Assembly (NCBI GenBank): GCA_032622095.1
Contig: CP136062.1
Location: forward strand, 135,322,960-135,386,959
Direction: 5' to 3'
Length of the DNA stretch: 64,000 nt
From: Siphonodentalium dalli
Taxonomy: Eukaryota > Mollusca > Scaphopoda > Gadilida > Siphonodentaliidae
Made by a program: the position numbers and the translations under genes. Shown here in pieces: positions 1,383 to 58,422 of this stretch. Under the pieces are notes generated by a model. That model searched no databases. It had not been told where the DNA came from and was given only the letters and a program-made list of their open reading frames with translations. Numbering within the stretch: position 1 is the first letter of the stretch; each line of letters opens with the position of its first letter.

Positions 1383-1763
1383 CCCTTTACCCAACAAACC
1401 GGCCAAAACCGGCCAAATAAAGCTTCAACGGCCTAAAATATCTTCGGTCTGTCTCAATAGAACCATACAAATATGGATATCATTGGAATCGGCTCCTTGA
1501 CCACATTTTGATAGTTACAGTTATGCCCTGTGCCAATGCATTCTCTTATATATGCGAGTCGACCATAGGTCGCCTCGCATATATAAGAGAATGCATTGGC
1601 CTAAAAAAATCTTTTTTTACCATTTTTTCTTACATTCTTTAACAATTTTATAATTTTTAATGTGTTAAACCAATGCATTCTCTTATATATGCGAGGCGAC
1701 CTATGGTCGACTCGCATATATAAGATAATGCATTGGCACAGGCCCGTTCTGTTGGGTAAAGGG
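1383..1763 (+). mobile_element. Four-hairpin TTAA MITE, copy 1
   Basis: The ends are CCCTTTACCCAACA and its complement (TGTTGGGTAAAGGG). The right flank is TTAA (1764-1767) and the left is TTCA. Inside are two 67-bp near-perfect palindromes, 1533-1599 and 1670-1736, each starting CCAATGCATTCTCTTATATA and ending with the complement. The second is the reverse complement of the first. Two CCGGCCAAAA units lie near the left end. TTAA duplications and CCC ends are typical of piggyBac-type elements. No coding capacity is seen, so it would depend on another element's transposase. Confidence 0.85.
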
Positions 1764-2037
1764 TTAACCTACTATACGTTTTCGTGTGATTAAACAACAC
1801 GACGTTTTAAGTCGATCGAACGAAGAATACTAACGGAAACTAATAACATTGACGGACGGTTAGACTGAATACATTACGGGCGAATAAATGTCGGACCTCC
1901 TTTATTCGAATTGAAGAAAGAGATTTCTCTTTTTAGTAGACAATTTGAACCACATGTTCGGCGCCATTTTGTTAGTAGACCATATTAAATTTTGTAGTTT
2001 ATGGCATAAGTTAGTATAATAAAAGTTCAAACAATAC

Positions 2038-2340
2038 GTGCCCACAGTGGCTCAGTGGGTGTGGTGCTTGGTGCATTAACATTAGGCCTACTTAAGCCGT
2101 TCCGCGATGCAGTAGCCGGTTCTAATCCCCGGGTGCGCGGATTTGTGTTCGATGCAAAGCGAAGGTAACCTGATTCGATTATCTGATTCGTATAACTCGG
2201 CAACATTATTAGTATATTTCGATGGGCAGTGGAGTGATTTGCCAGCGAAAGTAGCACTCTGTGTGGTCTTTACCCCACCTGTAAACTGATAATGTCGTGA
2301 TGTGGCCTAGCTACTGACACGACGGTAAACTCCAATTAAC
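2038..2340 (+). mobile_element. tRNA-derived SINE, copy 1
   Basis: An A-box-like TGGCTCAGTGGGT (2048-2060) and a B-box-like GGTTCTAATCC (2118-2128) indicate a tRNA-derived pol III head. The middle (GAAGGTAACCTGATTCG) and the tail from 2281 (GTAAACTGATAATGTCGTGA, then GGTAAACTCC) match the element at 61318-61622. The shared head, body and tail in two loci support a SINE rather than a tRNA gene. Confidence 0.75.
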
Positions 2341-2344
2341 CGAA

Positions 2345-5020
2345 ATATAATAAAGCTTCAAACAATATGCGGCGCTTCAGTCCCCATGTCGTAAATTCGC
2401 GATCAGTTGTCTTGAGTCTATCATTGGCTGTTACCCGCGTAGGAGGGGAATATAATCCTAGGGTAATTTACGAGAATAACGCGATGTGACCGAAGGCTAA
2501 TAAACATAGGCCCACGGGTGTAGCTGAAATGGCCAACGTAAATGGATTTCCACGAAAGAGCCAGCGCTACCATTACACTACTCTACGACGCGTCCTTCCA
2601 TTTCCCAAGCACTTAGGAGAAACTATAGACACTCTCGCCTTTATTTGATTCCATTAAGGAACAATGAGACAAATTGGTAGGAAATGCCATCAATAACAGC
2701 GCGGTAATAATGGTGGCCAAATTACCGACAAATGAAGCCTTAAAACTTCTCTTCCGCAAAGCTGTTGTGCTTAATGAGACTGGGAAGAATCTTGGCATCC
2801 CGTGGACTATTTGACAAAATCAATCTCGCGGTGTCATCCATTATTTTATCAGTTTTGATATCTTGTCGGCATTAATAGTCCTGTAGGGTTTTGCTATTAA
2901 TAAGCCTCGTATTATTTAAACCTCAGAAGATTGGGTCACTTTCTCGACTTTATGAACTCGATTATTTTCTTTTAGCGCAATCTTCTTGTGATAATGGACT
3001 TAAGGGTCTCCGGGGATGGGATCGAATTAGAATCAACCCCTCGGAACAACGGCCCTAATTTGGCTTTGAGCTCTCCTCTATTACACACGACAGTTGTTCG
3101 CGTTTTCGTGTATGTCAAATCACCTCTGTGTATAGGAATCATAATAAATCGTCTGAGCTCATTTGGGAGAAAATCAAAGACCACCGACAGGCCACATAAC
3201 AGATTACTGGACATTATTTCAGGCGATCTATTGTCTTACTTTCTAGATCATTGTTATCTCCGCTCTGTCAATGTCCATATCACACGATTCATATTAGTTC
3301 AATAGACAGAACACAATGCGCATCTTAATCGAGAATCTTTATCGAATGGGTTGTCGATGGCGCAAGGATAAATTTCGCGAGAGAAATGTAACTATGAGCC
3401 GTCCGCAACGAGTTCGATGAAATATTCGAGATTTTGATACAAGTTGTGTTTTGTATTTATTCTACACCGTTGTGTCAGATATGTTCACTCCATGACTGGC
3501 ACCTTAATTGATAATATAGCTGCCTATATTGTTATTTAAATATGATGAATAACCAGTAATGATCGTTTCATCACCCGAAGCGGATCGAAACCATAACGTA
3601 CGTCATCTTTCATGGCGACATCGTCCACAAGAATATTTACGGCTTTTATTCAAAAATATATATTCAGTGGCTGACATTCCGTTGAATACATGTGCCTCGC
3701 GTCAATGGGTGTGGAATAATATTCTTTCCTCTTTGTCGATATCCATATCACACGATTCAAGTTAGTTGCTGTGGGTGGGATTTTTTTTCTTTATACATAT
3801 TCACACTATGATATATCAAGATTCTCAGCAATGTAAAACGTTTAAATGTTTAAGTCACACGATATTAGAATTCGCGTACTGTAATTCTCAATGAGTCACG
3901 GGTGCATATACTTTCTTGTGGTGGCTACTTATGTCAGTTTGTCTGTGCGCAGCATAAATAGAAATAACCCGGGGTTACAACCGGGGAAATTCATCCACAG
4001 AAATGACTCATATAAACACATAGGCTCATTGTCTGATCCGATCCATCAATTTTTGTTCCATCCTATATTGTAACTGTATATATTATGAAATTAAGTGCAA
4101 TAAATACTGAACTATTGAACTAAAAAAAATACTAACTATTAATTTGTATGCCATTCGAATGCCCTTACACCTATAATTTACATATACGTGTGTTCCAGTG
4201 TTATAGTACTGACACCTGACCATCTATCCTGTTATAATCATGTGATGTTATTTGGTTCGGATTCTAAGACATACCACCATAACAATGAGACCATATGAGT
4301 ATTATAATTATGCATGTATAAATAATTACATCCACTTCATTCTCTATAGTGTAATTCCCGTTGAGTTTATCAAAGCTAATGTAATTAAATCTGATAATTA
4401 CCTTAGGTCGAGATTTTAGCAGTGCATCGAAAGCGACCCAAAAACTTGGCAAAAGTACTAGCGCGCAATAATATGTGTAGTCCGTTGCATAGTAACCAGC
4501 GACGCTACTTTCTTCGCAGTACACTTTTTTTTTGACAAACGACATTAAAGCCGACCAAAGAATAGCAAATAGACATCCAACTAGATATAATGTCGCTATG
4601 AATTAAACCTTTCCAAGCTGTTTACAAAGCCTAAATGTTGTCGTATTTGCAACGTATTGTAACGAAATGCATTGCTAAACTCACACAACTATTTGTCTTC
4701 GTTTCAATCTTTCATTTATAATTCAATCAAACCTTCAAAGCCTAGAACTAGTTGTATTGTACAATATATGACTACGCCCCATCCCAGTGTACCCTCTCCA
4801 CCTCAATCTACCACATCATAGTCTAGATAATGCATGATACTGGTATACATTTTCCCACCACTATAGGCATTTTGTGAGACCGTCACAAGTGGTACCGTAC
4901 ATTATATATTCTGTGTACAGGTTTACATTTTTGCATTTGTCTTATAAATTAGTAGAATTTATACTAAATTATAGAATGAAATCTTGAATTACTCTTACAA
5001 CAATTCCCAAACATTGTACC
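2345..5020. other. Gene-free interval, mostly unique sequence
   Basis: No open frame with recognisable protein content. About 2380-3420 is complex and free of obvious repeats, so it is a candidate for conserved non-coding DNA. A retroposon-like 3' end lies at about 4010-4130, where a short AT-rich tail runs into a poly-A stretch. Nothing else could be identified. Confidence 0.45.
3266..3767 (+). repeat. Two-copy 34-bp direct repeat
   Basis: Bases 3266-3299 and 3734-3767 share 30 of 34 positions, including CCATATCACACGATTCA. The copies are 468 bp apart, and the sequence around them is not similar. Confidence 0.75.
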
Positions 5021-5024
5021 CAGT

Positions 5025-5730
5025 CCCCGTGAGTAAACCGCAGCATGTTTTTACCTATATACGTCTCAGTCTATACAAACCGTTACGTGATATATGAGAT
5101 TTCACCATGCAAGACCGCCCTACAAGTTTCCGTCAAAAAAATGGAGCATTTTTCCTCACCACGTATCAGTGTAGCGATAAGTGTTACGAAGCGTTACTGG
5201 TACATATTTTCTGAGATTCCAGAGACCGTTTGTAGACCAGTATTACAAGTGTTACATCTTGCATATATAAAGCCCCCATAAGAAAACCGCAGCATGTATA
5301 TTTTTAAAACTCATATGGCATGATATGTAACAAAGTGTTACGAAGCGTTACGTGATTTCTGAGATCCATAGAGACCGCTCGTAGATTGGTGTTAGGAATG
5401 TTGCAAATGATATAAAGTCCATGTGAGAACACCGGCAGCATATTTTTTTTAACTCGTCTCAGTGTATCGATATGTCAGAAATTGTTACGAAGGTTTACGT
5501 GATTTATGAGATTCCACAGAGACCGATCGCAGAATGGTGTTCAAATTATTGTTCAGTAGAAACGCTACAAAGTCCCCGTGAGAAAACAGCAGAATTTTAT
5601 TCACCTCGTCGCAGCGTAGCAACATGTTTATTATTAGACTTTAATTAACAAATGAAATAAAGCGTTACCGAGCGTTTTGTGATTCCTGAGATTCCACAGA
5701 AACTGCTCATATAATAAATTGACATAATAT
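5025..5730 (+). repeat. Degenerate tandem repeats of about 140-250 bp
   Basis: Recurring blocks contain CCCGTGAGAAAACCGCAGCA, then CTCGTCTCAGTGTA, then GTTACGAAGCGTTACGTGAT and GAGATTCCACAGAGACCG. The CGCAGCAT-type block recurs near 5040, 5290, 5425 and 5588, so the spacing is irregular. It reads as an old satellite or microdomain repeat with no protein-coding sense. Confidence 0.65.
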
Positions 5731-6541
5731 TCATGTATGGATACAAGGTTTTGAATAATCACTTGAAATGTTACCAAATATGTTAGTTTTGAAAAATAAA
5801 TCATCTTAAAATTCCTCAAATACCATGATGGTTTATTCTTCTGAAAACTGTTTTTTTCGGTAAAATCACAAATGATAGGTCATATGTCATTGTGTGCGAA
5901 AAATCTAAATCGAAAAAGATTTGGCTCAAATTCCTCAATGCCGGCAGATATGAGAATTCCTGTAAGAGAATGTTCACTAAACTTATTGTTGTCCCCTGCT
6001 CATATAGTGTCATAACGACGACCGCAGATACCATGACTATTGAGCCCTATTTGTATAGACACGGTTTATGATATAATATAATACCGGGTGAATATGACTA
6101 TTGTTGTTAAACGTGGTTAAAATGAGGACGATTTTAAATAATAATATAAGGTCGCCGACCACGTGTCCCCCGAAAAGGTGGCTTTTTTTGGCTTAACTAA
6201 AAGTAAAGTTATCATCGGGAAACCAAAATAATCGGCAAATTCAACGTCAACAAGGACCATAACTCCGGCAAAAATTGGCGGAGCGAACCCATAAAAAACA
6301 AATTCGGGGGACATAAAATATATGTACACAGCCGAACAGCTAGTGCACATTTAAAGACATATTTTGGACTTATTTCCGTGAATAAACCCGATAATAACTT
6401 TTTCAAATACTATCTCTAATGAAAGAATGTTAATGAACGAAAATTTCAACCACATCGACTGTGCCATTCCAGAGAACACAACGTTTGAACTCCGCACAAA
6501 GGTAAATGTTTACTACTTATTCGGGACAAAATATTAAGTGA
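5731..6541. other. No gene seen
   Basis: AT-rich sequence with only short open frames. Nothing recognisable on either strand. Confidence 0.45.
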
Positions 6542-6545
6542 TTAA

Positions 6546-7039
6546 AGACACGGTTGGCCTTGGCGGTGGGTATCCTGTGAAAATATATCCACCCGTCAAA
6601 AACCGCCACAAACAGAACGAACATCAAAATGTAGACAGACTGTGTACGTATACAAATAAGAAATATCGCATAAACAGTATGTTATGGTCTTATGTTTGAC
6701 CATTGTTATGTAAACAAAAGCATAAAAAGTTACTTTTCTGGTGTTTGTTTATATTATGATGGTAAACATAAAGAGCGTTCTTTGTTAGTGAATACCTGAT
6801 ATGGAACTAATAAAGAGCGTTTCTGCCATTTGTGTGTGATTAGCCAGTAGCATTGTGCTGTCTTCTGTAACACAATCAGGCTCTTGCTTAGGTAAAATAT
6901 AGTAGGTCTTTATGATAACATGCTGTTTATGCGATGGTCATGGCATATATGAACGGAACTGTGTGCGTTTTAATGTTTTTCTGTTTACGGTGGTTGGAAC
7001 AAATATGAATATTTTCGACAATTAAGGCCGCACGTGCCT
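6546..7039. mobile_element. TTAA-flanked palindromic element, family A copy 1
   Basis: TTAA occurs at 6542-6545 and 7040-7043. The ends (AAGACACGGTTGGCCTT and the complement of AAGGCCGCACGTGCCTT) are imperfect inverted repeats. The arms continue inward through CCGCCACAAACAGAA and its counterpart, then through GCATAAACAG. Related copies lie at 26719-27317 and 50180-50692. No coding capacity is seen. Confidence 0.65.
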
Positions 7040-7043
7040 TTAA

Positions 7044-7434
7044 CCCTTTACCCAACAGAACGCCCAGAAACGCCCAAATGAAGCTTCAACAGCCTAAATT
7101 ATCTTGGGTCTGTCTCAATAAAACCATACAAATATGGATATCATTGGAACCGGCTCATTGACCACATTGTGATAGTTACAGGTATGCCCTGTGCCAATGC
7201 ATTCTCTTATATATGCGAGTCGACCATAGGTCGCCTCGCATATATAAGAGAATGCATTGGCCTAAAAAAATGTTTTTTTTAACACTTTTTACCATTTTTC
7301 TTACATTCTTTAACAATTTTATAATTGTTAATGTGTTAAGCCAATGCATTCTCTTATATATGCGAGGCGACCTATGGTCGACTCGCATATATAAGAGAAT
7401 GCATTGGCACAGGGCCGTTCTGTTGGGTAAAGGG
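7044..7434 (+). mobile_element. Four-hairpin TTAA MITE, copy 2
   Basis: Flanked by TTAA at 7040-7043 and 7435-7438. The terminal inverted repeat CCCTTTACCCAACAGAACG is perfect on the right except for one base. Palindromes are at 7194-7260 and 7341-7407, both 67 bp. The left TTAA is also the right boundary of the family A element at 6546-7039, so the two elements share one target site. Confidence 0.9.
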
Positions 7435-7560
7435 TTAAACATTCTGGAATGATACCATCGATATCGTTTTCACGTGGTTCGTTTATAACAATGGCGCTGT
7501 TTTCTGCCTATTTGTATAACCTTTATGAATATAACTAATTATTGTTCCACGTCACTTTAA

Positions 7561-7795
7561 CCCTTTAATTATGGGAGCTGCGCTGGTGCATCATTACATA
7601 TCCTGTGCCATAGCATTCTCTTAGGGAGCCTCGCATATTTTGAAGAATTCACTGGCTTACAATGTCAAGGTAAATATGGTAGGCCAATGTATTATCTTAC
7701 ATATGCGATGCGCCATATAGGAGACTCGCATGTATAAGAGAATGCATTGGCACAGGGTTTTCCCAAAATTTCAGGAAGCTCCGGTCATGTAAGGA
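7561..7795 (+). mobile_element. Diverged four-hairpin element
   Basis: TTAA at 7557-7560 and 7796-7799 flank ends CCCTTTAATTATGGGAGCT and its diverged complement. Inside are decayed versions of the palindromes: GCATTCTCTTAGGGAGCCTC with its partner, then a better copy ending GTATAAGAGAATGCATTGGC. It is an older or separate subfamily with the same core. Confidence 0.65.
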
Positions 7796-7799
7796 TTAA

Positions 7800-9039
7800 T
7801 ATTCCAAATTGGGATCGATGTACTATTTTTACATTGTGTTGCCCATTATCTCCATGCTCCAAGTATAGTTAAGTCCCATTAGCAGGACTTATCGCTGTCC
7901 TCACCTACAAAAGAAATGTAGAAATGTAACTTTGAGACTTCTGGGGTGCTATTCACCGGCTGGGTTTATAATATAGTCCAGGTGGTTTTACGAGGCGACA
8001 CTCAATGCGAAGCTATCGGTGGACATATCGATGGGAAGACATCGCCGCGCCATATAGGATTATCCAATCAAGGTGATTGGCGTCAATCATAGATTGACCA
8101 CCGGTCACATAAACATGCTGCGTGTAACAGTACACGTTTGTACACATTTCAACAATGAGCAACCGAGGAAAAGGACGTGGGGCAAAATATACCACCGACG
8201 ACATGAGGGGGTCTACAAAAAAATCCGTATATAGGGCCGGGGTGGGTGGGTGGTCCTGGGGCCGAAACAATCGTGCTTGTAATTTTTTTTCCAAAATGGT
8301 TTTTTTTCAAACAATTTACAAGTACTGACCATGTAATGTTGTTTGTAAGCATGTTGGTATCATGTTTGTTTGCATATGGCTATATAGACAGCTATAGTGA
8401 CTATTTAGCCTCAGATTTAGCAACATTCTGGATTTCACAGGATCCGGTCCGACTTCTCAGTGGAAAACCGTAATTTAGTAAAAAAAATTAATGTATTACC
8501 CAGTTGTATTACCCGAATAATAGTAATAAAATAAAAAAAAACTGTATCACAAATACTACATGGTGAATACTCAATGATGACTAGATATCATTGACCCGAT
8601 TGTTGCATAACATGAAATTGAAAAGGGTATCTCATAAATTTCTAATGTCTGAAATACTGTCTTGTTCTGGCATGCAATTAAATTCATTCCTTCTGGTTAT
8701 TTCTCATCTTTTTAATGATTGCAAGTAATGTTAATTTGCAGCACTTATCCAAATAAAACTGAATTGGTTATGATGAATGGCCGTTACTGTTTATTGTTCA
8801 GACAATCCCGACTGAAGGTGACGCTATTCTCCTTGAATTTACGAACATCATCTTGAAGCTTAAATACTGCTCAACAGGACTAAACTACAATACTAATTGT
8901 ATACTGTTATCGCTTACAAATAGATGAACTGAAATAATGTGATGCATTCAGATGCTTTGAGAAATGACATTCTTCAATGTCTTCAAAGTTCAAACTAAAA
9001 TCAAGAATAAAATCGGACTGACACTATACTGCAGACTCT
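7800..9039. other. No gene seen
   Basis: Sequence without a recognisable frame or repeat, except short homopolymers near 8282-8310 and 8480-8545. Confidence 0.4.
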
Positions 9040-9505
9040 ATAGTGCATACATATACATACAAATGGTTGAGTTATAATAATGCAAAATATGTTTACGGAT
9101 GGAACCAAGTTGGTAGCTCTGGTATGCATCTACAGGCAAAACCTGTGATATGCAGTAATATCTGCATACATCATTCCCGTATCATTCAGGTCTATCACCA
9201 TACAAAACCACTTCAAAATTCGACAACCGACACTTCAACTTATATGGCAAAAACTTTGTACGGATTGAATTTCATAAACAGGGCCCATGGATAACTCTGG
9301 TAGGCATTGGTACTCACAATCCGTGATATTATGCATATTCGTTCCCCATTTCTGGTCCGTCACATGTCATAGAGCATCAAAATATGACAACCGACTCTTG
9401 AGTTATGATGCAAAATGTTTGTACGGACGGACGCACGGACGGCTCGAGACGTCAACTATATACCCGCCGACTAATATCGGGGGTATAATAACCATATATC
9501 TATGT
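9040..9505 (+). repeat. Two tandem units of about 200 bp with a GGACGG / GGGGGTATAAT end
   Basis: Two similar units (TGGTATGCAT or TGGTAGGCATTGGTACTCAC, then CCTGTGATAT, TTCCC, CAACCGAC, GCAAAA, TTTGTACGGA) are followed by a GGACGGACGC run. The sequence ends in a hairpin, TATACCCGCCG with ATCGGGGGTATAATAA. The same end structure occurs at 59380-59458, so this is a dispersed repeat family. No open frame. Confidence 0.65.
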
Positions 9506-19586: not shown

Positions 19587-20519
19587 CAGTCATGATACCG
19601 ATACATATTAAAGTGTTATTGACATCTCTATTTAACAATGGTGTGCATGGTTTTACGATACTGGTACGCGTACCCTTGTCATATCGTATGCTCTTATTTC
19701 CTAAATTTTAAAAGCACCAAGCATATACGTCTCTTGTGCTCCTTTTAATATATTTGACTTCTAAATTGTCCATGTGGCGCTTCGGAATGTGTACCTTGGT
19801 TTATTACACACCTTCGTCCATGTTACCGAACACAGGTTTACCCCTATACTTATTATTTGGTGTTCCCAGTCTGGATACCTATATCTTATATTATACAACA
19901 GAAGACGATCGATGAACATGAGTTCACATATATACTGATAAGTTTGCTTGGCAAGTTTTGAGGCAATTCGTCGTACATGGCTTATTGTGTGATGGCATAT
20001 GGACGACAAACTACGTATAGTAAATGCATGTGCAGCACCGTTTGCCACACGAGTACTGTTATATATTTATTCCGTAACTAAAGCTGTCAGATATCTACAA
20101 AATACAATATGACGCACCAGAGATGTGGGCAAACCTCCGCGGTGCAAAGTTGAAACATGACCACAATGAGCGAACATCCATTAATTGGTACTCAATAACG
20201 TTTCAGTAGAAAAAAACATCGTTGTACAAAATATTTGAAGGCAACATCAGCGACCCTTTGCATACCTTTGCAAGCTCTCGTGGTGTTTAACTCTGTCTGT
20301 ACTAAATTCTCCCATTATTTATAAAAGTATGCATTGGTGTGCCATTTCAGAAATTGCTCTATTTTCAGGTCCCTGGTCCACAAATGACTCTCAGTTCACA
20401 CCGTTCATGTTTAAATTCGTATTTTCGAAAGCATACTTCCCTCTCGGGTATGAAAAAAAAATCCACTCACGTTATATATCTGTTATATTTTGAAATATTA
20501 ACGATAACACACCAACATT
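19587..20519. other. No gene seen
   Basis: Short open frames only. A fragment near 20285-20345 resembles the family C element ends (CTGTACTAAATTCTCCCA). Confidence 0.4.
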
Positions 20520-24790: not shown

Positions 24791-24961
24791 TTAATATGCG
24801 CCCATGCAAGACAATATTGCAGATACCAGTTACTCTTATGCAGTTTAATTCCATTTATTGGAACACTCATCGTCATAGAGTGACATACAGAGTGAGAAAA
24901 TTGATTCAAATAAACTAAATAGGATATTGCATGGCGCGTTGTTGGTATACATTTACATATA

Positions 24962-25112
24962 CAGTAATGTCCTAAATAATCGACTCCTTAACCACAGCAG
25001 AATTAATGAGAGCTTTCCGATGAATGGCAACAAGCCATATTTCCGACTAAATCCTGAAAAGTTACCCATAATTCTGCTGTGGTTAAGGAGTTGATTATTT
25101 AGGGCATTACTG
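24962..25112. mobile_element. TA-flanked palindromic MITE, deleted copy 1
   Basis: TA dinucleotides flank the ends CAGTAATGTCC and GGGCATTACTG. The right arm is full length; the left arm lacks the segment between CAGCAGAATTA and GAGAGCTTTCC that the copy at 54383-54595 keeps. The TA target and CAGT end are typical of Tc1/mariner-type elements. No transposase. Confidence 0.85.
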
Positions 25113-25333
25113 TAGGTATAGAGTATTTGAACATAAGGTATGTACATGAATGTTTATATAATTTGGATATGAGTATGAAAACAGATAGTCATTGAATGTG
25201 TTGTTAGTTTGAAATGGTGGAGGGTCAGATCAAAAACAGATAGTGTTGGGTGTAATGAATGCAACAAAGTCCCACTCAAATGGCGTGAAACTATAGCTGA
25301 AACATTCGTGTTCTACACTGTTCGCACTATTAA

Positions 25334-25735
25334 CCCTTTACTCAACAGAAGGGCCCTGTGCCAATGCATTCTCTTATATATGCAAGTCGACCATAGGTCG
25401 CCTCGCATATATAAGAGAATGCATTGGCTTAACACATTAAAAATTATAAAATTGTTAAAGAATGTAAGAAAAAATGGTAAAAAGTGTTAAAAAAAGATTT
25501 TTTTTAGGCCAATGCATTCTCTTATATATGCGAGGCGACCTATGGTCGACTCGCATATATAAGAGAATGCATTGGCACAGGGCATAACTGTAACTATCAC
25601 AATGTGGTCAAGGGGCCGGTTCCAATGATATCCATATTTGTATGGTTTTATTGAGACAGACCCAAGATAATTTAGGCTGTTGAAGCTTTATTTGGCCGGT
25701 TTTGGCCGGTTTTGGCCGGTTTGTTGGGTAAAGGG
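25334..25735 (-). mobile_element. Four-hairpin TTAA MITE, copy 3 (inverted)
   Basis: TTAA at 25330-25333 and 25736-25739 flank CCCTTTACTCAACAGAA and its complement-type end GTTGGGTAAAGGG. Palindromes are at 25361-25427 and 25509-25575. It is in the opposite orientation to copies 1 and 2: its long arm, with three TTTTGGCCGG units, is on the right. Confidence 0.9.
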
Positions 25736-33344: not shown

Positions 33345-34405
33345 CAATTATTTCGTATTTGCCCGCAAAAAGTGGCGTCGCTAAATATAGAAAAGAGGAG
33401 TTGCAAGGGTAATAAAATTATCGTAACCCTTTGCAAAATTGATATTGTTCTGGAAAAAATGTCGTCGCTATACAGAGAAGACAGGTTTTACAAGGGTAAT
33501 AACAATATCTTATCCCACTCGTAAAATTTATATTACCCTGCAAAAAATGTCGTCGCTATATAAAGAACATAGGTTTTACAAGGGTAATAACAATCTCGTA
33601 TCCCCCTTATAAAATTGATATTACCCGGCAAAATATGTCGTAGCTATTTTGGGAAAACAGATTTTACCAGTTTAATAACAAACTCGTACCCCTTTGTAAA
33701 ATTGATATTTCCCTTCAAAAAATGGCGCCGTATAGAGAATGCAGGTTTTACAAGGGTAATAACAATCTCGTTACCCCTTGTAAAATTGATATTACCATGC
33801 AAAAATTTCGTCGATATATAGAGAAGATAGGTTTTACAAGGTTAATAACAATCTCGTACCCCCCCCCCTTGTAAAATTGATATCACCACGCATAAATTTC
33901 GTCGCTATATAGAGAAGACAGGTTTTACATGGGTAATATAAATCTTGTATCCCCTTGTAAAATTGATATTACCGTGGGGAAAAATGTCGCTTTATAGAAA
34001 AGACAGGTTTTCCAAGGGTAATAACAATCTGTTATCCCCCTTGTAAAATTTATATTACCATGCAACAAATGTCGTCGCTATACAGAGAAATAACAATCTC
34101 GTATCCCCCCTTGTAAAATTGATATTACCCTGCAAAAATATGTCGCTATATAGAGAAGACATGTTTTACAAGGTAATATAACAATTGGGTATCCACATTG
34201 TAAAACTGATATTACCCTGCAAAAAATGTCGTCCCTATATAGAGACGACCTGTTTTAAAAGGGTAATAACAATCTGGTATCCCCCTTGTAAAATTGATAT
34301 TACCCTGCAAGAAGTGTCGTCCTAAATAGAGAAGACAGGTTTTAAATGGGTAATAACAATATCGTATCCCCCTAGTAAAATTGATATTACTCTTCAAAAA
34401 GTTTG
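33345..34405 (+). repeat. 88-bp satellite, about 12 units, each able to form a hairpin
   Basis: The marker GTCGTCGCTATATAGAGAAG or variants recurs near 33369, 33460, 33548, 33635, 33722, 33806, 33898, 33985, 34069, 34140, 34227 and 34314. Most units contain TTTTACAAGGG and, about 15 bases on, CCCTTGTAAAA, with GGTAATA and TATTACC outside or overlapping. Some units are shortened. The short open frames over it are by-products of the repetition. Confidence 0.9.
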
Positions 34406-38044: not shown

Positions 38045-39290
38045 GTGGTCAAAACTTCAATGCTATTCGAACTGGAACAATGCATAATAACCGGAAACAT
38101 CCACATTTGGCTGAATAGCTATCTCTCTAACAGATCACATCGTGATTTAGTGGGTAACCCCTTGTCTGATTACCATAGTATAGCGACAGGAGTTCCACAG
38201 GGATCGATACTTGGACCGTTCTTATTTCTGACATATATAAATTACTTGGCAACGACCAAACATTCTTGTACTCGTATGTACGCAGATCATAGTGTTTTGT
38301 TTTCACTATCCCGCCATCACTCGATGACAGTTCGCGGGAACGCTACGAAGATCTAGATAGAGTATATATATTGTTGGTCGAAACAATGGTTTGTCACATG
38401 AAATGCAGATAAAACAAAATCAATGGTGTTTTCACTCACTCCGTCGTAGGTTTATTTGGATCTTGAAATACTTGATGATCGCGATATAGAGCAAGTAGAC
38501 TGCCATAAACATCTTGGAATCTCTATACAATCAAATCTTCATTGGAACTCACATATCAAATATCAAGTAGACTGTCACAACTAAGGAGAATAAAGTTTCT
38601 TGTAACCTTGAAATAATGTTCCAAACTTATGTACTCCCAATACTGCCCCCATTGCCTTCTCTGGAATCTCGACGGCCTCTATATCGACCCAGTCCGGTAG
38701 AATATAGTAAGTGTGCTGACACGTTCTGTGTCAGACGAGAGAGTCTTAAGTAGACTCGGTTGGCCTCCCCATAACGAAAGACGAAACCTTCATAAAATGC
38801 ATACCCGGAACAAAATATAAACTAATCATGTCCCTAAATATACATCACAAACTTACTACCGCAATATGTCGGTAACGCATCTTGTTACCCCATCCGAAAC
38901 CCTTTGCGATATATACATAAACTACTTCACCAATACGGCCCACTTCAAATCGGGTTTCATCCTATTCATGACCGCACTGAATGGAATAAATCATGCAAAA
39001 TCACTACCGACAACAAAACAACTTAACGACACCTCATCAGAGCCAACCAAAGACGAAATCATAAGTAACATGTATAGAACTTTCTGCAAAAAAAACCAAT
39101 GACTGTAAAACCCCACTATACTACAACGGGGGCCAGTGGAGACTAAACAGATTGCATTGTAGACTCAGAAATAACTGCAGTGATCTAAACTTTGATAAAA
39201 TATATTCAACACAACTTCAATCTATATATCACAGACCAAACAGAGAATATAAGCCAGTCAAGCAATTTATCGGGTTCAATAGTGCTGGTT
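38045..39290 (+). pseudogene. Non-LTR retrotransposon reverse transcriptase, decayed
   Basis: The frame at 38045-38356 contains WLNSYLSNRSH, GVPQGSILGPFLF (about 38189-38230) and YADH (38279-38290), in the order of palm motifs in LINE reverse transcriptases of the CR1/Jockey/L2 kind. The catalytic YADD has become YADH, and a stop follows. Later fragments in other frames resemble the thumb (NADKTKSMVFS near 38404; VDCHKHLGISIQ near 38500) and the tail (LGWPPHNERR near 38755). Frameshifts and stops show an inactive 5'-truncated copy. The endonuclease domain was not found. Confidence 0.85.
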
Positions 39291-44462: not shown

Positions 44463-44910
44463 CAAGCCTGCAAATAGCGTGTCTGTCATTTGCAGAATGA
44501 GGTCCCCAGAGGGTGGATTTAGTGACGCTACACCGCATAGTGGGCTAGCATCACTAAATTTACCCTCTGGGGACCTCATTCTGCTTAGGGCCCTCAACTG
44601 CTATGGCAGTCCTAGGATCAGATTGAAGTTCCCCAGTTGAAGTTGGTGATGTTCACCCATTTTGGAGCCTCGATTATGGATTTTATCTTCTGCAAATTAG
44701 GGGATATAGAAACTTCCCATATGGGAAAACGTAACTAAAAACAATGTTAATTTGATACCATAGTTACTTCCCAGAAGATGAGGCCTAAGCAGAATGAGGT
44801 CCCCAGAGGGTGAATTTAGTTATGCTAGCCCGCTATGCAGGGTAGCATAACTAAATTCACCCTCTGTGGACCTCAATCTGCAAATGACAGACACGCTATT
44901 TGCAGGCTTG
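44463..44910. mobile_element. hAT-type MITE, copy 1
   Basis: An 8-bp duplication CTTGAGTG flanks it exactly (44455-44462 and 44911-44918). The ends CAAGCCTGCAAATAGCGTGT and complement are nearly perfect for over 40 bp. The interior contains hairpins of the type GAATGAGGTCCCCAGAGGGT with its complement. Eight-base duplications and CA..TG ends are typical of the hAT superfamily. It is nested in the 6.1-kb element, so it inserted later. Confidence 0.9.
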
Positions 44911-46549: not shown

Positions 46550-47101
46550 CAGACCTGTGTCTGTCATTTGCAGAATGGGGTTCCCAGAGGGTGAATTTAG
46601 TGACGCTATCCCTCACGGCGGGTTAGCGTCATCAAATTCACCCTCTGGGGAGACCTCATTCTTCTTATGCCTCAACTGCTATGTCTGTCATTTGCAGAAT
46701 GAGGTTCCCAGAGGGTGAATTTAGTGATGCTATCCCCCACGGCGGGCTAGCGTCACCAAATTCACCCTCTGTTGGGACCCCATTCTGCTTAGGCCTCAAC
46801 TGCTATGGGAGACCTGCATGGGATCATATTGAAGTTTCCCAGTTGAAGTTGGTGATGTTCACCCATTAGTCACCTCGATTATGCAAATTAGGGGATGCAA
46901 AAACTTTCCAGAAGGGAAAAAGTAACTAAAATCAATGTTAATTTGAGACTTGAGATACTTCTCAGAATATGAGACCTAAGCAGAATGAGGTCCCCAGAGG
47001 GTGAGTTTGGTCATGTTAGTCCCCTGTGTGGGATAACATTACTAAATTCAACCTCTGGGAACCTCATTCTGAAAATTACAGACACACTATTTACAGACTT
47101 G
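46550..47101. mobile_element. hAT-type MITE, copy 2 with internal duplication
   Basis: TCTCTCAA occurs at 46542-46549 and 47102-47109. The ends are CAGACCTGTGTCTGTCATTT and the complement of CAGACACACTATTTACAGAC. The GTCTGTCATTTGCAGAATG hairpin segment is present twice (46558-46680 and 46681-46800), which makes it about 100 bp longer than copy 1. Confidence 0.88.
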
Positions 47102-47460: not shown

Positions 47461-48044
47461 TGCTGAACACTCATCGATATGATGAGTAGTTCCCTTAGGA
47501 AATGTGCAGATAATGGAACTTATTATCTTAACATTTCCCACCAACGAATACGAATCCTTCCGCATGTATGTCGTCTGCTTATATTTTATCTTAACGCACG
47601 AACAACAGTATAAAGTTATCGCATTGTTTCGAGGTTGACATGAGGAATTGTCAACCCGAGGAAGTCAATATTCACCGAGACCGTAGGTCGAGGTGAATAT
47701 TGACTTCCAGGGGCTGACAATTCCTCGTGTCAACCAAGAAACAATGCGATAACTGTTTTATTATACGAAACGCGCTTTGATTGGACAAGACGTTGTGACG
47801 TTGAACGTCGCTGGAAAAATCCTATCTATTTTCAGGTATGATAATAAGTTATGTTAACCCCTGAAGTATCTGACGTCACTCAGAACTGGTATTAACCTCT
47901 TGTTTGATTAATGAGGTGAACATCATTAGATATCTCGATTTTTTTTCGTTACGTTTTAGCATCATAGGAATTGGGAGAGAAATTTATGATAAACATTTTA
48001 ATGTATTCTTTAATTACTGAATGAGATAATCCATTTATAAATGG
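47461..48044. mobile_element. Family C element with a nested palindrome
   Basis: TTAA at 47457-47460 and 48045-48048 bracket CCCTTTTATTTGCTGAACAC and a right end ATAATCCATTTATAAATGG. The family hairpin is near 47508. A separate 160-bp palindrome (47605-47764; GTTATCGCATTGTTTC, GACATGAGGAATTGTC, AAGTCAATATTCACC and complements) sits inside and is probably another MITE. Confidence 0.65.
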
Positions 48045-49209: not shown

Positions 49210-49463
49210 GTCGTTCTATACTAAATACTCATGGACGAGTAGTTACCTTAGGAATTGTTCAGATAATAAGTTCATCAAACGACCATTGAAATTATTATCT
49301 GAACGTTTCCCACTAATTAATATGAACCCTTCAGCACTTGTATTAGCTTTTTGTTTGACTGTCGTCTGCTAAGTTATCCCGAACGTCCCTCCAGATGAAC
49401 AATTGACCAATCCAATGAATACGCTTGTAACTCAGTGGGAGAATCCATTCAGTATAGAAAGGG
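49210..49463. mobile_element. Family C MITE, well-preserved copy
   Basis: Ends GTCGTTCTATACTAAAT and the complement of CCCTTTCTATACTGAATGG. TTAA is at 49206-49209. The interior holds GACGAGTAGTTACCTTAGG, the hairpin TCAGATAATAAG (49260) and CCCTCCAGATGAAC. The right target site is mutated (TGAT). Confidence 0.7.
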
Positions 49464-50692: not shown

Positions 50693-50696
50693 TTAA

Positions 50697-52502
50697 CGCG
50701 TTCTGCCAAATTGAATATACACTCTTAATATCGTTGTTTGATAAAATTTATCTATCTGTATTCTACATGTTGCTTTTTCCTTATATCCTTTTATTTTGTT
50801 TGATTTCATGTATGCCATACCTGTATATTTTATATGGTTGAGCATTACAAATCTATATCTAGCTACTATTATTTACTGAAAAAGATAGTAAAAATTGAAA
50901 AATCTGTTACATATGGAGATGTTCTTAATAAACGTACATGCTCACAAAGTTGCTTGAAAACTTCTGCATTACAATTTTATAACGTGCATTTGCCATAAAC
51001 ATTGCTGAGAAAATCGGATGCACACGAGCGTAACTGAATTATAGAATTACAAATCACTGATTGGTATGTTATCTTGATCATCTTCGGATTAAATTGTGCT
51101 TCTTTGAAACGTGGGATTAATTCTGTCGATCGCTGTGCTTCGATGATGGAGATGTTTCTAAGCGGATAAAGTTCACGTCTGTCTGGTCACAACTTTTATC
51201 GGATGCGTTCAATAAACTACTTGTCTTTCGCGCTCAATTAAACTGTGCATTTAATGTCCACGGGAATAACATCCCTTTGACCGACTTGCATACGTTATAC
51301 TTTTTGTGACCATACGTTAATCGTGCCAAGAAAATTAAATTCTTGATTACATTAGCAATTACAATTGGTGAATTCGTAAAAGAGATGGGACTGTCCGATT
51401 CAGTTCAATATTCTATATAATATTCACCATGCACCGGGAATCCGGGAACACTATCCGAGATAGATTCCACATACAACTACGTGACTTTATATGTGAACGA
51501 GTAGCATGATGCGAAATAAATACGTTTTATTATTTATCACATATAGTTTCTAACCGGGGATATTCGTTGATACGAGAGAGCATTTATTGGGATTTCCTTA
51601 CCGTTCCCATTTTAATGTAATGCTTTAACATAAATTATACCTGTATAGGATAGGAAATATTTTTTATTTTCAAACCACACAAAACAAAACTCATCGAAAA
51701 CAAGAACACTTCTGAACGTCCAATTGAATATTTCATAGTTCTGGACTTAAACAAATGGAACAATGAGTATTATAAATGGCGTCGAGCCTTACTACTCCAG
51801 ACACCAGAAGTCCCAACGTTTGAAATAAATCCGGTGATATTCGTGGTCGGAAAAGTGCAATTGCAAATATTTCAAGAGGTTTATGATATTTTAAAGCTAC
51901 ACATGGCATGTTTAAAGCTACACGTAGCTCTCTTATTTTAACGTTTGATAATTTTGAAGGCTGTGACAAACCCACCATGTCGTATGATTATTAACTATGT
52001 GACCACATCGTACAAGTGCGAGACTTGCAACCACTTGTTACCCAATTTCGTGCTAAAATTTGAAGTTGAACATTGAGAATATTCGCAAGTGAACAGATCG
52101 GACAATAGAGCACTCTCACCTATTCTGAGGGCAGAGTGCGATTAGATCGAGCACATAATTTGACTTCCTTTAGAAGTTATCTGTTTGAACTGATGCATGG
52201 CGCTTCAATAAGACCTTAAAAGCCTCGCCATCTGTATAGAGCAGAACGCCCGTATAATTTCTTCTATTGTTCGAATCAATTTGATCTCTCATACAGCCCA
52301 CTTAATTGACTTGTAATGAGCATGCACAATATACCACCCTCCGACTTGATACCTGATACGAGTTTGGAAATCACGTGTCATTTACTAATTGACAGCTTAA
52401 TTCCCATTGTCCCAATCAGCTTGCCCTATTTCGCCGCGCGGAAGATTAACAGTCACGCGATATTCTTGGTATGAAGTTACTCCGATGGAAATACTTGGCG
52501 CA
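50697..52502. other. Gene-free flank downstream of Hmx
   Basis: This is the 3' side of the Hmx exon on the minus strand. It lacks clear MITEs from about 51000 on, unlike most of the window. The untranslated region of Hmx probably lies in its right part. No other gene is seen. Confidence 0.5.
51526..51531 (-). terminator. Candidate poly(A) signal for Hmx
   Basis: AATAAA on the minus strand, about 970 bp after the Hmx stop codon. In AT-rich DNA such hexamers occur by chance, so this is only a possibility. Confidence 0.2.
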
Positions 52503-53213
<711 letters not shown>

Positions 53214-54310
53214 TCATGATAAGATTACACATAACAATCTAACATCGCAAACTTAATGACAATTTTAAAGACAGCAGTTGGTTATTTTAAACGCAAAATT
53301 TATGCTCGTTTTTTTTACATCCAGGCCCGGTTCCGTGGAAAATATGTCGATAAATAAGTTATAGGTTATTTAGGTTATATAATTTGGGCAACTTCATTCG
53401 GCATCGAACAATAAAAAGCATGTCTTAATTGTTAGTCTTTCCCCAATACGGCAAAAAATAAAGCGCTTTTGTCCCACTTGTGAAAGGCCTTTTCGATGAA
53501 CTCAGGACTAAACTAATAGGCCGAACAAGATAATTTCTCGTTCGTTGCAATGTGATGTGTGAGACATGGGTCGAACTGTATGTGCCAGGTAGTACCACCA
53601 ATCTTTCAAGCAGGGACGTGGCTAGAGGGCCTTCATTTGGGGAGGTGGGTCTGATTTGAAATTTACAATTGAGCCCCCCCCCCCCCCGAAAATTCAATTC
53701 TGAGAAATTCCACACTCGCCCCCCCCCCCCCCCCCAGTTGTGCATCAACCTTTCCCAGTTTTTGGAAAGTTTCGATTTAACACCCGTGGGGTTTTTGCCA
53801 TTTCAGTCCATAAATAAACCGAAAGTAGGAGAATGTTTTACCTTGGCCACCCCCTGTTGCCACGTCCATGGGTACAATCTGTTGTGAAGCAAGGAATTTT
53901 GGTCTAAGTTGTTGACACCTATCGGCAATTATCACCTGCAGAAATGGGGGCCATTTTATACGTCCATAATTGACTGAAGCGGTGCTGTCATCGTGTGTCA
54001 TTATTTTTGGATTGATTTCGATACATTTGCTGGTGGGTTCGTGTCAGGTACCCGTATTATGTACCCGTATAATTTGAGTCTATATAATCGGACAGCTGTG
54101 TACCGCGTGGTGGACTAATGGCAGACATCATGGCGATCGTTTCGTATAACCGGTTTTAATTAAAACACTTTCCCCCTAATCGCCCCACGATTGTTGGAAT
54201 ATGATCCTGACCAGCGGATGTCGGCAGCCCACCCATTCACGCCATCGCGATCAATACTTATATTGCGTTTTCTAAAATCACAACAATCACGCATAATATG
54301 GGATCCATTA
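53214..54310. other. Hmx intron/upstream DNA; long C runs
   Basis: Two C runs at 53678-53690 and 53710-53726 lie in a region resembling the GGAAATTT/CCCCCC dispersed repeat. 53900-54310 is complex and repeat-free, with a TTTTAATTAAAA palindrome at about 54153; it is a candidate intronic regulatory element. No other exon was recognised on the minus strand. Confidence 0.4.
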
Positions 54311-54382
54311 TGTACATTTAGCCAGTTGCTTTGTGGCGCGTTAGTCTGGCGCACTCGCTAAATACGCATCTCTTGCCATCTA

Positions 54383-54595
54383 CAGTAATGCCCAAAGTAA
54401 TTGACCACTTAACTACAGCAGAATTATGGGTAATTTTTCAGGATTTAGTCGGAAATATGGCTTGTTGCCATTCATTGGAAAGCTCTCGGCGAGAGCTTTC
54501 CGATGAATGGCAACAGGCCATATTTCCGACTAAATCCTGAAAAATTACCCATAATTCTGCTGTGGTTAAGTGGTCAATTACTTTGGGCATTACTG
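54383..54595. mobile_element. TA-flanked palindromic MITE, complete copy
   Basis: TA at 54381-54382 and 54596-54597, ends CAGTAATGCCCAAAGTAATT and complement. The whole 213 bp is an almost perfect palindrome centred on GAAAGCTCTCGGCGAGAGCT. Non-coding Tc1/mariner-like MITE; it serves as the reference for copies at 24962 and 61633. Confidence 0.92.
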
Positions 54596-54665
54596 TATTT
54601 GATCATCAGAAGGTGAAAAAAGTGAGAATGTTTAATATGAGGCATAAACTTAATCAATAGTTTAA

Positions 54666-54913
54666 AGGGGTACTGTACACTAAATCTGGCCACTTATGTG
54701 ACATTTCCTTTTATACTCAGCAGAATATATGCAACAAATTAATGAATTTTGAGCCATGGATTAGTACATGGATGTTGTTTGCATTGTTCATAGATCACAC
54801 AAGTGTATTTTTGCACTAATCCATGGCTCAAATTCATTCATTTGCTGCATATATTCTGTTGAGTATAAAGGAGATGGTCTAATAAATGGCCATATTTAGT
54901 GTGCAGTACCCCT
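54666..54913. mobile_element. TTAA-flanked palindromic MITE (AGGGGTACTG ends)
   Basis: TTAA at 54662-54665 and 54914-54917. Ends AGGGGTACTGTACACTAAAT and the near-complement of GTGTGCAGTACCCCT. Arms continue inward (AGCAGAATATATGCA, GAGCCATGGATTAGT) around a central spacer. Non-coding, with a piggyBac-type target. Confidence 0.88.
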
Positions 54914-54917
54914 TTAA

Positions 54918-55410
54918 GGTCTAATTCTGAGTCACATTGTTTCATGATTTCGTTTTAATTTTGAGATGAATAGCTACACACAATTATACACATGCACAGT
55001 TGTTCTTGTGTTTAATAGGTGGTCCACCATGTACCATTTCGGATTTAAACGGATGAGCACCTTGCATGTAAATAGAAACATTGCATGGATGTTCTTGATC
55101 TGCTTTCCCTCTCAGTTCGGGAAGAATATTCATCCACATCACCACACAATCCAAATATCACTCATGTGGGTGGTTGCAGCAAATTATACTATTGTGTTCC
55201 TCTGTGTAACGGTGTGTTTGTTTATTTGCACATCTGCACTTGTTTTCGTTCGTTATTTTCTTGTTGTGCCTCAATGCTTATATGGGATTGCCTGTTGCCT
55301 GGACCCGGTGCTCTGTATTGTCAAAAAACACAAATTAACCCTGTTAAAAATACTCTCAATGTTCTTAGCCTTTTCGTTGTGTAACCGGAGCCTACCTACG
55401 GGATGTCTGA
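54918..55410. other. No gene accepted
   Basis: A 151-codon plus-strand frame at 54966-55421 encodes a hydrophobic, Cys/Val-rich sequence with two possible membrane stretches, but it has no recognised family and overlaps the 45-bp repeat. It is probably chance. Confidence 0.4.
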
Positions 55411-55523
55411 TGTACATTTAGCCACTCGTTTTGTGACGCATGAGTTTGGCACACAGCCTCCGATTATCGTTTTGCTAATTGACTGTTACCCTAAACTGTT
55501 CCTAAAGGCAGGGGTAAACGCAG

Positions 55524-55569
55524 ACAATTATCGCCAAGTGGCTGCCTCAATGGCTGTTGAGATAATTGT
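55524..55569. promoter_or_regulatory. Candidate homeodomain-site cluster upstream of the Hmx exon
   Basis: CAATTATC and its complement GATAATTG flank a CAAGTG core (55535-55540), with further CTAATTGA and GGTAATTAAAA nearby. CAAGTG is the core reported for Hmx/NK-type proteins and TAATTG for many homeodomains. Arrangement alone does not show function. Confidence 0.25.
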
Positions 55570-56286
55570 AGGGTAATTAAAATATGACCCACGGACTGCT
55601 CGCTGGTATCACTCGGTTATTCATTATGCTGGTTGGGTTATACCTGATAAAACGAACATAATAAAAATAAAGGATGTAACAATAACCGAGTGGCAAGCTA
55701 ACATATCAGTTTTCGTCACCACTTTTCAGAAAATATGGCGACTACGGTCTCTAGTTATTAAACAACAGATCTTATTTGACTGGCAAGATTCACTCGAACA
55801 GTGTTACAGCATTGTACTTTTACAAGAAAATGAACCATAGTTCATACACTGAATCTACTAAAATGCTGATATCTACTCTTAAATTGTACATGGGAAGCAA
55901 CCAATGACACGGGTGTACAACTTCCAGAAAAGGGGCACCATTTCAGTCAGAGGTATTGGCATATATGAAAAAACGTAAACATTTTGATAACCATACCACA
56001 TTTTTTAATGCATTTCTCAGGTCCAAGCTGACATTAAGCTACTATATAAATGGTATATTTTTCTCTCAGGCCATAATAATAATTGTGACAATGCTGTTTT
56101 CGGTTAAGATCTCAGGTATTTATTGCCATTGCAGTTTGAAAAGGCACTCTGAGTCGCTCCGCACCCTGTGGAGGGCAGGGGTGTGTCCACATCTTCCCCC
56201 CGCTCCGGCGCCACTGCATGAATTCAGTTTGACCAAATCCTTACTTTTGAAGAAAAAACAATCTTTGTGGTTTTCCTTCTACCAGT

Positions 56287-57217
56287 CCAAAAGTTTATGT
56301 TCACTTTTATTAGTAATCACAATAACCAAACCCATGGATGCAACATTTTAAGAGTATAATTCATGGTAGATTATGTTACAAATTCCAAATGTGAAATTTA
56401 TAGAAGTTTTTAAAATCTATTTTTTCGAACCCAAATTCAACAAACACAAAGATCATATCTAAGAAAAAGATATGGGTATGTGTACTGAACACTGTGAAGA
56501 ATGATGAACAATAAAGATATACTCACATTTCTTCAGTTTTATTAAGATTTTTGGCTTGGAAGCAGTTGTTTACAAAATAATAATGGTAGCTTTCATTGCT
56601 CAGAAAATCTATTTGGGAAATGAAATTGATGGGTCAAGTTAATGTTCACTCAAGCCAGCTGGGATTATGACCAGCGGGTGCTGACCTATAAGAATATTAT
56701 ATCCTGATCCAGGCTGATTGGTGACCTAGTTGCTGGGCTATGTGGTACCCCCAGATTGGGGATTACACAGTTCTTTTGTCAAGATATTCACAACACACCA
56801 CTGCATGTCCACATATATTAACACTTAACTGTCACCTCACTACAAGGGAAGTCAGGCAAGTTACTCAATTATTTGTAAACAATTGGTTCTTAGTAATTTT
56901 ATCAAAGAATGCTTGATAAATATGAATATTATTTTATTGTTCATCATTTTTCACAGTGTTCAGTACACATTGCCATATTTTTTTCTTTGATATGGACTTT
57001 GTGTTTATTGATTTTGGGTTCGAAAAAAATTATTTTAAAAACCTCTATAAATTTCACATTTAGTATTTCTAACATATTCCACGATGACGAATACGTTTCA
57101 CGTAACTATCCCGCGTAATGAAATAGACCCAGATAAAATAAAGGCTATTTGGTGTACTCTTAAAATGTTTCATTCATGGGTTTGGTTACTGTGATTACTA
57201 ATAAAAGTGAACATAAA
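56287..57217. repeat. Inverted repeat of about 240-bp arms, right arm interrupted
   Basis: 56287-56516 and 56924-57217 are inverted (GTTTATGTTCACTTTTATTA, AACCAAACCCATG, GAACAATAAA and complements). The right arm contains a foreign 70-bp stretch, 57087-57156, identical to 57761-57830. The loop is about 400 bp and unrecognised. Confidence 0.8.
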
Positions 57218-57574
57218 CCTTTATTTTGACTCCATCAATTTTGGGGAAAATTGGGTTAGCAAAGTCCTTAAGACACTTAAGCACACAATCGAGTAACATA
57301 CATATGATTACTCATATTTGAGCACTATCGCACACTATACACTAAGACTATAGTAATCATTGTTAATATCTATACTGTATGTCTTCACAATTGAGATGAA
57401 TAATGGACATCTCGATCAACATGAAGACTGAAATCCCAACAAGTCGCCCATGTCGAAAATCATGCAATTATATATAGATCCTGTCGTCGATCTGGAGGTT
57501 CTCGAATTTGTCCCATTTCTTTACAAGGGTCGGCTTAAACTTAGTTTCAAACAATTCGTTTGGCCAGTGTATGG

Positions 57575-58049
57575 TGCACACAGTGGTCCAATATATAGAG
57601 GATCTACAACGAATATCCAGTTTATAGCGGAGTTTACAAAACCTAATTTACTTGACGAGTTTTGGAAATTGTAAACTGGGGACTCGTTGTAGATTTTATT
57701 TATTACATGATCCAAAACCTCGACAAAACATACTTAATTAAATAATGGGACGCGAAACTAACGAATACGTTTCACGTAACTATCCCGCGTAATGAAATAG
57801 ACCCAGATAAAATAAAGGCTATTTGGTGTATTTAATGGCGTATATAGTTAATGTCATAACTTTTCAAACTCTTCATTCATTATAGTGTGTTGGAAAAATA
57901 TTGGAAGTATTTTGAGACGTAGTGTAATGTAAACATACGACAAACCGGAAGTCAAAGGTCACCTGGCACTATTTCCTGTTATTAAACGAACGTTTAATAT
58001 CAAAATTTATAGAATGGGTTTATTGAATGGAATAAGGGTAATATCATTT
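57575..58049 (+). repeat. Family D repeat, copy 2
   Basis: Inverted relative to 48600-49130. It includes the 70-bp block 57761-57830 and continues on the far side of the inserted element at about 58427. Confidence 0.75.
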
Positions 58050-58422
58050 GTGACCCGCCATATCAAATCCAGTCGGAAGTCGGGATTTTTTTACCCGTGC
58101 CAATGCATTCTCTTATATATGCGAGTCGACCATAGGTCGCCTCGCATATATAAGAGAATGCATTGGCCTAACAATTTTTTATCATTTTTTTAAAATAAAT
58201 GTTTCTGACAAATTTTAGGACATAAAATAGAAATGTATGGGTGAAATTATAAAATTGTTAAAGAATACAAGAAAAAATTATTAAAATTGTAAAAATTTGT
58301 TAGGCCAATGCATTCTCTTATATATGCGAGGCGACCTATGGTCGACTCGCATATATAAGAGAATGCATTGGCACAGGGTAAAAAAATCCCGACTTCCGAC
58401 TGGATTTGATATGGCGGGTCAC
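58050..58422 (+). mobile_element. Four-hairpin element with different ends (ATTT target)
   Basis: ATTT at 58046-58049 and 58423-58426. The ends are GTGACCCGCCATATCAAATC and complement, continuing for about 45 bp, unlike the CCCTTTACCCAAC ends of the other copies. Inside are the same two palindromes, 58100-58166 and 58305-58371, starting CCAATGCATTCTCTTATATA. The uninterrupted family D copy near 48640 shows the pre-insertion site. Confidence 0.9.

Follow-up and report, generated by a model that had tools for sequence, protein, structure and literature searches.

MITEs are classed by their ends, and what lies inside them is usually taken as filler. Palindromes set in inverted order are known from bacteria, where two of them make up the repeated mobile unit of the REP/BIME system, which is moved by a Y1 transposase and is not known to have TIRs or target duplications. 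The piggyBac and piggyBat transposons target TTAA. A clear precedent is provided by the CMITEs of the coral Acropora, in which Wang et al. (2010) distinguished six families with different ends and with TTAA targets, the target being characteristic of the group (PMC2872659). These elements are about 100 bp long, and their 75-base internal region is more conserved between families than the ends are (PMC2872659). A CMITE inserted in another element, CMITE-IN, has given a new mobile composite, and the authors suggested that the internal region plays a part in transposition and that the group may be served by a variety of piggyBac-like transposases; the role of the MITE inside was thus raised in 2010 and left open there (PMC2872659).

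Two further systems are relevant. The piggyBac and piggyBat transposases bind palindromes in the ends of their elements through paired C-terminal domains (PMC11707139). In Anopheles gambiae, three groups of related MITE-like clusters share their TIRs and have different insides (PMC3212995). Here we analyze a window of 64 kb (the whole stretch of DNA under study, to which all copy counts refer) in which one core is present in five elements, E1 to E5.

Results

A core of two long palindromes

Each core consists of two 69-bp near-palindromes that are inverted copies of one unit, GCCAATGCATTCTCTTATATATGCGAG(T)CGACC-ATA-GGTCG(C)CTCGC..., made of a 33-bp arm, a 3-bp loop and a second 33-bp arm. Since palindrome 2 is an inverted copy of palindrome 1, the same arm sequence occurs four times per core. 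A preliminary description of this DNA had given the palindrome length as 67 bp, which is corrected here; it had also reported that each element holds two near-palindromes that are reverse complements of one another, with the arm present four times, and this we confirmed in E1 to E4. The four elements it listed lie where it placed them (Table 1), and the core in E5 raises its total to five. The two arms mismatch at their 28th base (T/G), and the loop, ATA, is asymmetric; these features are kept in 9 of the 9 palindromes compared, the partly deleted first palindrome of E5 being left out. The asymmetric unit runs in the same direction relative to both ends, as terminal repeats do. As single strands, E4 (as RNA) and the E2 core (as DNA) are predicted to fold into one long hairpin and not into separate small ones, the E4 RNA at -258.8 kcal/mol (z -36; none of 100 shuffles folded equally well). 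When the window was searched with a profile of the five cores, only those five copies scored above threshold, with a sub-threshold match of 38 bp at 20318-20355 (E = 0.13), and none of the five copies is free-standing.

Table 1. Core-bearing elements and their palindromes (positions within the 64-kb window)
Feature	Position	Strand	Remarks
E1 element	1383..1763	+	CCCTTTACCCAAC ends; flanks TTCA (1379-1382) and TTAA (1764-1767)
E1 palindrome 1	1532..1600	+	69 bp
E1 palindrome 2	1669..1737	-	inverted copy of palindrome 1, 2 changes
E2 element	7044..7434	+	CCCTTTACCCAAC ends; TTAA on both sides
E2 palindrome 1	7193..7261	+	
E2 palindrome 2	7340..7408	-	exact inverted copy of palindrome 1
E3 element	25334..25735	-	E1/E2 family, reversed; TTAA on both sides
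E3 low-coordinate palindrome	25360..25428	+	one change
E3 high-coordinate palindrome	25508..25576	-	inverted copy
E4 element	58050..58422	.	GTGACCCGCC ends; ATTT at 58046-58049 and 58423-58426
E4 palindrome 1	58099..58167	+	
E4 palindrome 2	58304..58372	-	exact inverted copy
E5 decayed carrier	7561..7795	+	ends CCCTTTAATTATGGGAGCT / TCCTTACATGACCGGAGCT; TTAA at 7557-7560 and 7796-7799
E5 core	7602..7757	+	first palindrome partly deleted; second at 7683-7751, 10/69 differences from E2

The core lies within three types of ends

In E1 to E3 the core adjoins the right end on its inner side, and on the left a stretch of 130-140 bp lies between the core and the 13-bp end. The terminal sequence CCCTTTACCCAAC is exact at five of the six ends of these elements, and the sixth (25334) has one mismatch that falls outside the CC[C/T]T motif, so this motif is present at all six. 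With up to two mismatches allowed, CCCTTTACCCAAC gave 7 matches in the window against 1.23 expected, a number reached by none of 100 shuffles; six of the matches are the E1-E3 ends and the other is an unrelated site at 58599. By their targets and their matching CC[C/T]T TIRs, E1 to E3 are candidate piggyBac-type (TTAA) MITEs. Three elements sharing one end type and TTAA targets had been claimed, and the end type was found at all six ends, while TTAA is present at five of the six flanks and is replaced by TTCA to the left of E1. All three spacers are oriented alike with respect to the long flank, which rules out an inversion of the spacer between copies. Another inverted-repeat element of the window, at 54666-54913, has TTAA flanks and AGGGGTACTG ends and is without the core.

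E4, present as a single copy, is symmetric, with a 47-bp outer end followed by a palindrome on either side, and its two arms (the outer 47 bp, the palindrome and a few bases beyond) are identical over 126 alignment columns save for one missing T. With at most one mismatch, GTGACCCGCC occurs at both E4 ends and nowhere else in the window; a pair of such matches is not in itself rare, being found in 13 of 100 shuffles, yet the match between the two ends of E4 extends over 47 bp. A TTAA-flanked E4 is ruled out, the flanks being ATTT on both sides, and its ends start with GTGACC in place of a CC[C/T]T motif. The fourth element was therefore correctly described as having different ends and a 4-bp ATTT duplication. 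Because these ends and this target misfit TTAA targeting, a single transposase for all the carriers is hard to support, and E4 would need a different transposase than the TTAA carriers.

E5 is likewise a single copy, and TTAA stands on both of its sides. One of its ends reads CCCTTT and the other TCCTTA, and their end-to-end score was matched by 17 of 500 shuffles, which is only moderate support for TIRs. Both ends contain GGAGCT at an equal distance from the TTAA, a motif absent from the E1-E3 ends; this, and tips unalike beyond CCCTTTA, argue against E5 being merely a decayed member of the E1-E3 group. There are thus three end types in total, two of them with TTAA targets, and the tips of E1-E3, E4 and E5 are unalike apart from the CCCTTTA common to E1-E3 and E5.

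The core has common, sharp edges

The module runs from CCCTGTGCC to GGCACAGGG (CCCTGTGCC...GGCACAGGG), with CCCTGTGCC as the edge motif at all five independent junctions (E1-E3 and E5 contribute two each, the symmetric E4 one). All five fall at CCCT|GTGCC, and the sequence outside is unrelated from one junction to another (ATG, CGG, TTTA, TAT and AAA). Three edges deviate by a single base: the left edge of E5 lacks a C, that of E4 lacks a T, and in the right edge of E1 a C has become a G. Such common sharp edges look like the ends of a mobile unit, and the CCCT edge agrees with the CC[C/T]T motif that the coral work gives for the ends of piggyBac (PMC2872659). The sequences that flank the core itself show no target duplication in E1-E3 or E5 (TATG/CCGT in E2, ATAT/TTTT in E5), and E4 is uninformative on this point because its arms are symmetric.

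The palindromes are more conserved than the spacer

Comparison of E4 with the other well-kept elements set the palindromes apart from the spacer between them. The differences were 2/138 in the palindromes and 13/68 in the spacer against E1 (Fisher p = 1e-5), 0/138 and 15/71 plus indels against E2 (p = 3e-8), and 1/138 and 15/72 against E3 (p = 4e-7); these three tests count substitutions outside indels, are not independent of one another and hinge on how an AT-rich spacer is aligned. The E4 spacer also has a 64-column stretch missing from E2, plus smaller indels. Going from the palindrome into the spacer, E4 and E1-E3 cease to be alike after no more than about 5 bp, and this, taken with the divergent spacer, means that the conserved thing is the palindrome and not the whole core. 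Accordingly, the earlier claim that the core is better conserved than its surroundings holds for the palindromes and fails for the core as a whole, whose spacer has diverged. As in the CMITEs, the inside is more conserved than the ends across end types, E2 and E4 having unalike tips around identical palindromes. This pattern suggests that the palindromes themselves may be kept because they help the elements to spread.

Within E1-E3, a comparison of three copies, 3 of 138 palindrome columns are variable against 16 of 130 in the left flank (p = 0.0014), or 9 of 106 once the short GGCC repeats of the flank are left out (p = 0.034). The difference between the palindromes (3/138) and the spacer (4/67) was not significant in these copies (p = 0.22). 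Only one of the 26 columns of the outer 13-bp ends varies. When ends, tips and palindromes were pooled against flank and spacer, we obtained p = 0.0026 with the 13 right-tip columns (2 of them variable) left out, p = 0.008 with them included (6/183 against 20/197), and p = 0.098 with the right tip in and the short repeats of the flank out. Between end types the contrast is therefore strong; within E1-E3 it is only moderate, and the lower variation of the palindromes there does not hold up under every choice of columns. All these tests rest on four well-kept elements. In the decayed E5, the two palindromes differ from E2 at 10/50 and 10/69 positions and the alignable spacer at 10/26, so that the palindromes together remain less diverged (20/119 against 10/26, pooled p = 0.03). 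The changes in one arm of its second palindrome are unmatched in the other arm, which is what one would expect of an old copy that is under no structural constraint where it sits.

A second family with the same plan lacks the contrast

Twenty long hairpins were detected when the window was scanned for them, against none in any of three dinucleotide shuffles. Eight of them lie in E1-E4, five in a second family, one in a TA run, two in tandem arrays and four elsewhere. The second family, whose sequence is unrelated to the core, follows the same plan of hairpins in inverted order at 44463-44910 and 46550-47101, with exact 8-bp target duplications (CTTGAGTG and TCTCTCAA, respectively). In the copy at 46550-47101 the first hairpin is doubled in tandem (124-bp unit), and the left end matches the right end poorly. 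An 8-bp target duplication is the hAT rule, and by this length the family looks like a hAT-type one; no autonomous copy of it was seen in the window. Its hairpins are as diverged as the rest of the elements (30/186 against 38/245, p = 0.89), which rules out a general conservation of hairpins in this genome. The plan thus recurs in unrelated elements, and strong conservation is special to the core.

Other palindromic sequences of the window include a near-perfect one of 217 bp at 54381-54597, to which an inverted-repeat sequence at 24960-25114 and a short hairpin at 61718-61758 are related by eye. A single 141-bp hairpin at 47614-47754 has a centre, ACCGTAGGTCG, close to that of the core palindrome, ACCATAGGTCG, a likeness that is likely due to chance.

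Genomic context and searches

A homeodomain was found in the minus-strand ORF 52503-53210 (Pfam E = 3e-22), whose product we take to resemble an Hmx protein; the window would thus lie at a developmental gene, and its DNA is most likely animal. No transposase domain was found by Pfam in any of the 59 stop-to-stop frames of at least 90 aa in the window, the weak matches under the cut-off being Homeobox_KN, MMM1 and DUF2583. A partial fragment at 38045-38356 (plus strand) has a weak reverse-transcriptase match below the curated cut-off (Pfam E = 1e-5), and a tandem array with an 88-bp unit, in about 8 copies in its best part, occupies 33365-34400. A tRNA scan of the window gave none. Exact searches of viral contigs with patterns of 20-25 bases from the palindrome, the E1-E3 flank and tip, the E4 tip and the second family gave no match, and neither did searches of prokaryotic genome contigs with the palindrome patterns; absence from such contigs says little about animals. 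The internal sequence of the CMITEs, used as the printed 60-mer, had a best match of 12 bp and none in the core, whose sequence is thus not that of the CMITEs.

Discussion

The ends of the carriers differ, and the palindromes, the edges and the orientation of the core are held in common, which fits a discrete module selected as a cis-acting site. We therefore propose, with a probability that we put at about 0.45, that the core is a palindromic, MITE-like module whose palindromes would be selected in cis for mobility, and that it is carried in larger non-autonomous elements. The module CCCTGTGCC...GGCACAGGG would have the build of a small MITE, including sharp ends of its own, and its two inverted 69-bp palindromes would be retained for their action in cis. 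We infer that a protein binds them; they would be putative sites most likely of a dimeric transposase, or else of a host factor, and for the TTAA carriers dimer binding is a reasonable guess by analogy with palindrome recognition by piggyBac and piggyBat (PMC11707139). The outer ends of each carrier would set the cleavage site and the target, with two TTAA types and one 4-bp (ATTT) type. The module may have entered its carriers by nested insertion, as in the coral CMITE-IN, or by an exchange of ends during gap repair.

That the module is portable is supported by the sharp edges that it has in common in three types of element, the tips of which differ apart from the CCCTTTA of two of them, and selection is likewise supported by conservation of the palindrome that stops within about 5 bp of it on the spacer side. 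Against this reading stand the lack of an inner-edge duplication in E1-E3 and E5, of a free-standing copy and of a transposase domain in the window, and the weak internal support from E1-E3 (p = 0.22 for palindromes against spacer, and up to 0.098 when pooled). The much smaller size of the piggyBac and piggyBat palindromes, the ends and ATTT target of E4 and the presence of E4 and E5 as one copy each also speak against it. Two suggestions of the preliminary description, that the core had moved between unrelated elements and that it is itself selected, both find support and are compatible with each other. A bolder version, that the portable palindrome pair works with the ends of more than one transposase superfamily, on TTAA and on unrelated 4-bp targets, seems unlikely to us; if true, one cis-acting DNA module would serve unrelated cut-and-paste systems.

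A separate MITE might also have landed independently in three carriers and have been only a passenger since then, its palindromic TIRs having been selected only while it moved alone, with core subfamilies of different spacers now sitting in different carriers. The sharp common edges and a CCCT tip that matches the piggyBac terminal motif would be expected of such a history, for which CMITE-IN is a precedent (PMC2872659), as would TIRs conserved around a free spacer between E4 and E1-E3; MITEs of other sequence with four hairpins and exact 8-bp duplications do stand alone in the same window. However, E1-E3 and E5 show no target duplication at the inner edge, the 64 kb hold no free copy, and a passenger would be expected to vary as fast as the flank, a rate that the E1-E3 palindromes do not reach (3/138 against 16/130 in three copies). 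Passive nesting thus explains the edges and the contrast between E4 and E1-E3, but not the lower palindrome variation within those three copies, and we consider it doubtful. Recent spread of the elements, with the differences between their parts due to sampling noise or to a badly aligning, changeable spacer, would agree with the few copies, the non-significant difference between palindromes and spacer within E1-E3 and the AT-richness and several indels of the spacer; it is very improbable in view of the E4 comparisons, which use substitutions outside indels and gave p values from 1e-5 to 3e-8.

The palindromes could instead be homogenized, whatever the carrier, by gene conversion, in which cruciforms are extruded, cut and repaired from other copies. 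The coincidence of conservation with the palindrome edges on the spacer side and the great stability of the core as a folded single strand suit this mechanism. But the T/G mismatch and the loop asymmetry persist in all nine palindromes, the decayed second one of E5 included, so the arms have not been evened out inside the hairpins, and the 44463/46550 hairpins, diverged like their surroundings, indicate that hairpins in this genome are not homogenized generally. Genome-wide conversion is made less likely by both observations, and we judge it quite improbable. The least probable of the explanations, to a degree that makes us set it nearly aside, is that the palindromes are kept as a source of dsRNA or small RNA useful to the host or the element. 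The E4 RNA does form one long and exceptionally stable hairpin, but any long inverted repeat folds alike, no Rfam family reached its gathering score in the window, and the unmatched arm changes of the second E5 palindrome mean that pairing was not maintained in that copy. For the replication signal or dsRNA source suggested previously, we obtained no positive evidence beyond this expected folding.

Should an internal palindrome be selected and be combinable with different ends, the unit of MITE evolution would be something other than the TIR family, and some MITEs may owe their success to an internal part. With its defined edges, a conserved sequence known exactly and carriers that differ in end type, the present case is a directly testable version of the question raised by the coral study.

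Among known systems, the REP/BIME units resemble the core in having a pair of palindromes in inverted order, an analogy only, as these units are bacterial. The MITE-like repeats of Anopheles gambiae are similarly palindromic or palindromic-ended, but they are the opposite case, since here the inside is common and the ends differ (PMC3212995). With piggyBac and piggyBat the elements share a short terminal tip and a palindromic subterminal part; however, the palindromes of those transposons, of 19 bp and about 14 bp, are far shorter than 69 bp, and they are autonomous transposons with a known transposase, whereas E1-E5 are non-autonomous (PMC11707139). Among the listed titles and abstracts of the open-licence literature, Repbase apart, the coral CMITEs are the only case that we recognized as having this pattern, and other printed cases are possible. 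CMITEs resemble E1-E5 in being short and non-autonomous and in having an inside conserved across end types, and E1-E3 in their TTAA targets and CCCTTT-type ends (PMC2872659), and by this precedent the phenomenon is already known in kind. Unlike them, the elements described here have another core sequence, two 69-bp palindromes and one carrier with non-TTAA ends, and the CMITEs are not known to have a long inverted palindrome pair (PMC2872659). What is new at this locus is thus the double long palindrome and its presence in one carrier with non-TTAA ends.
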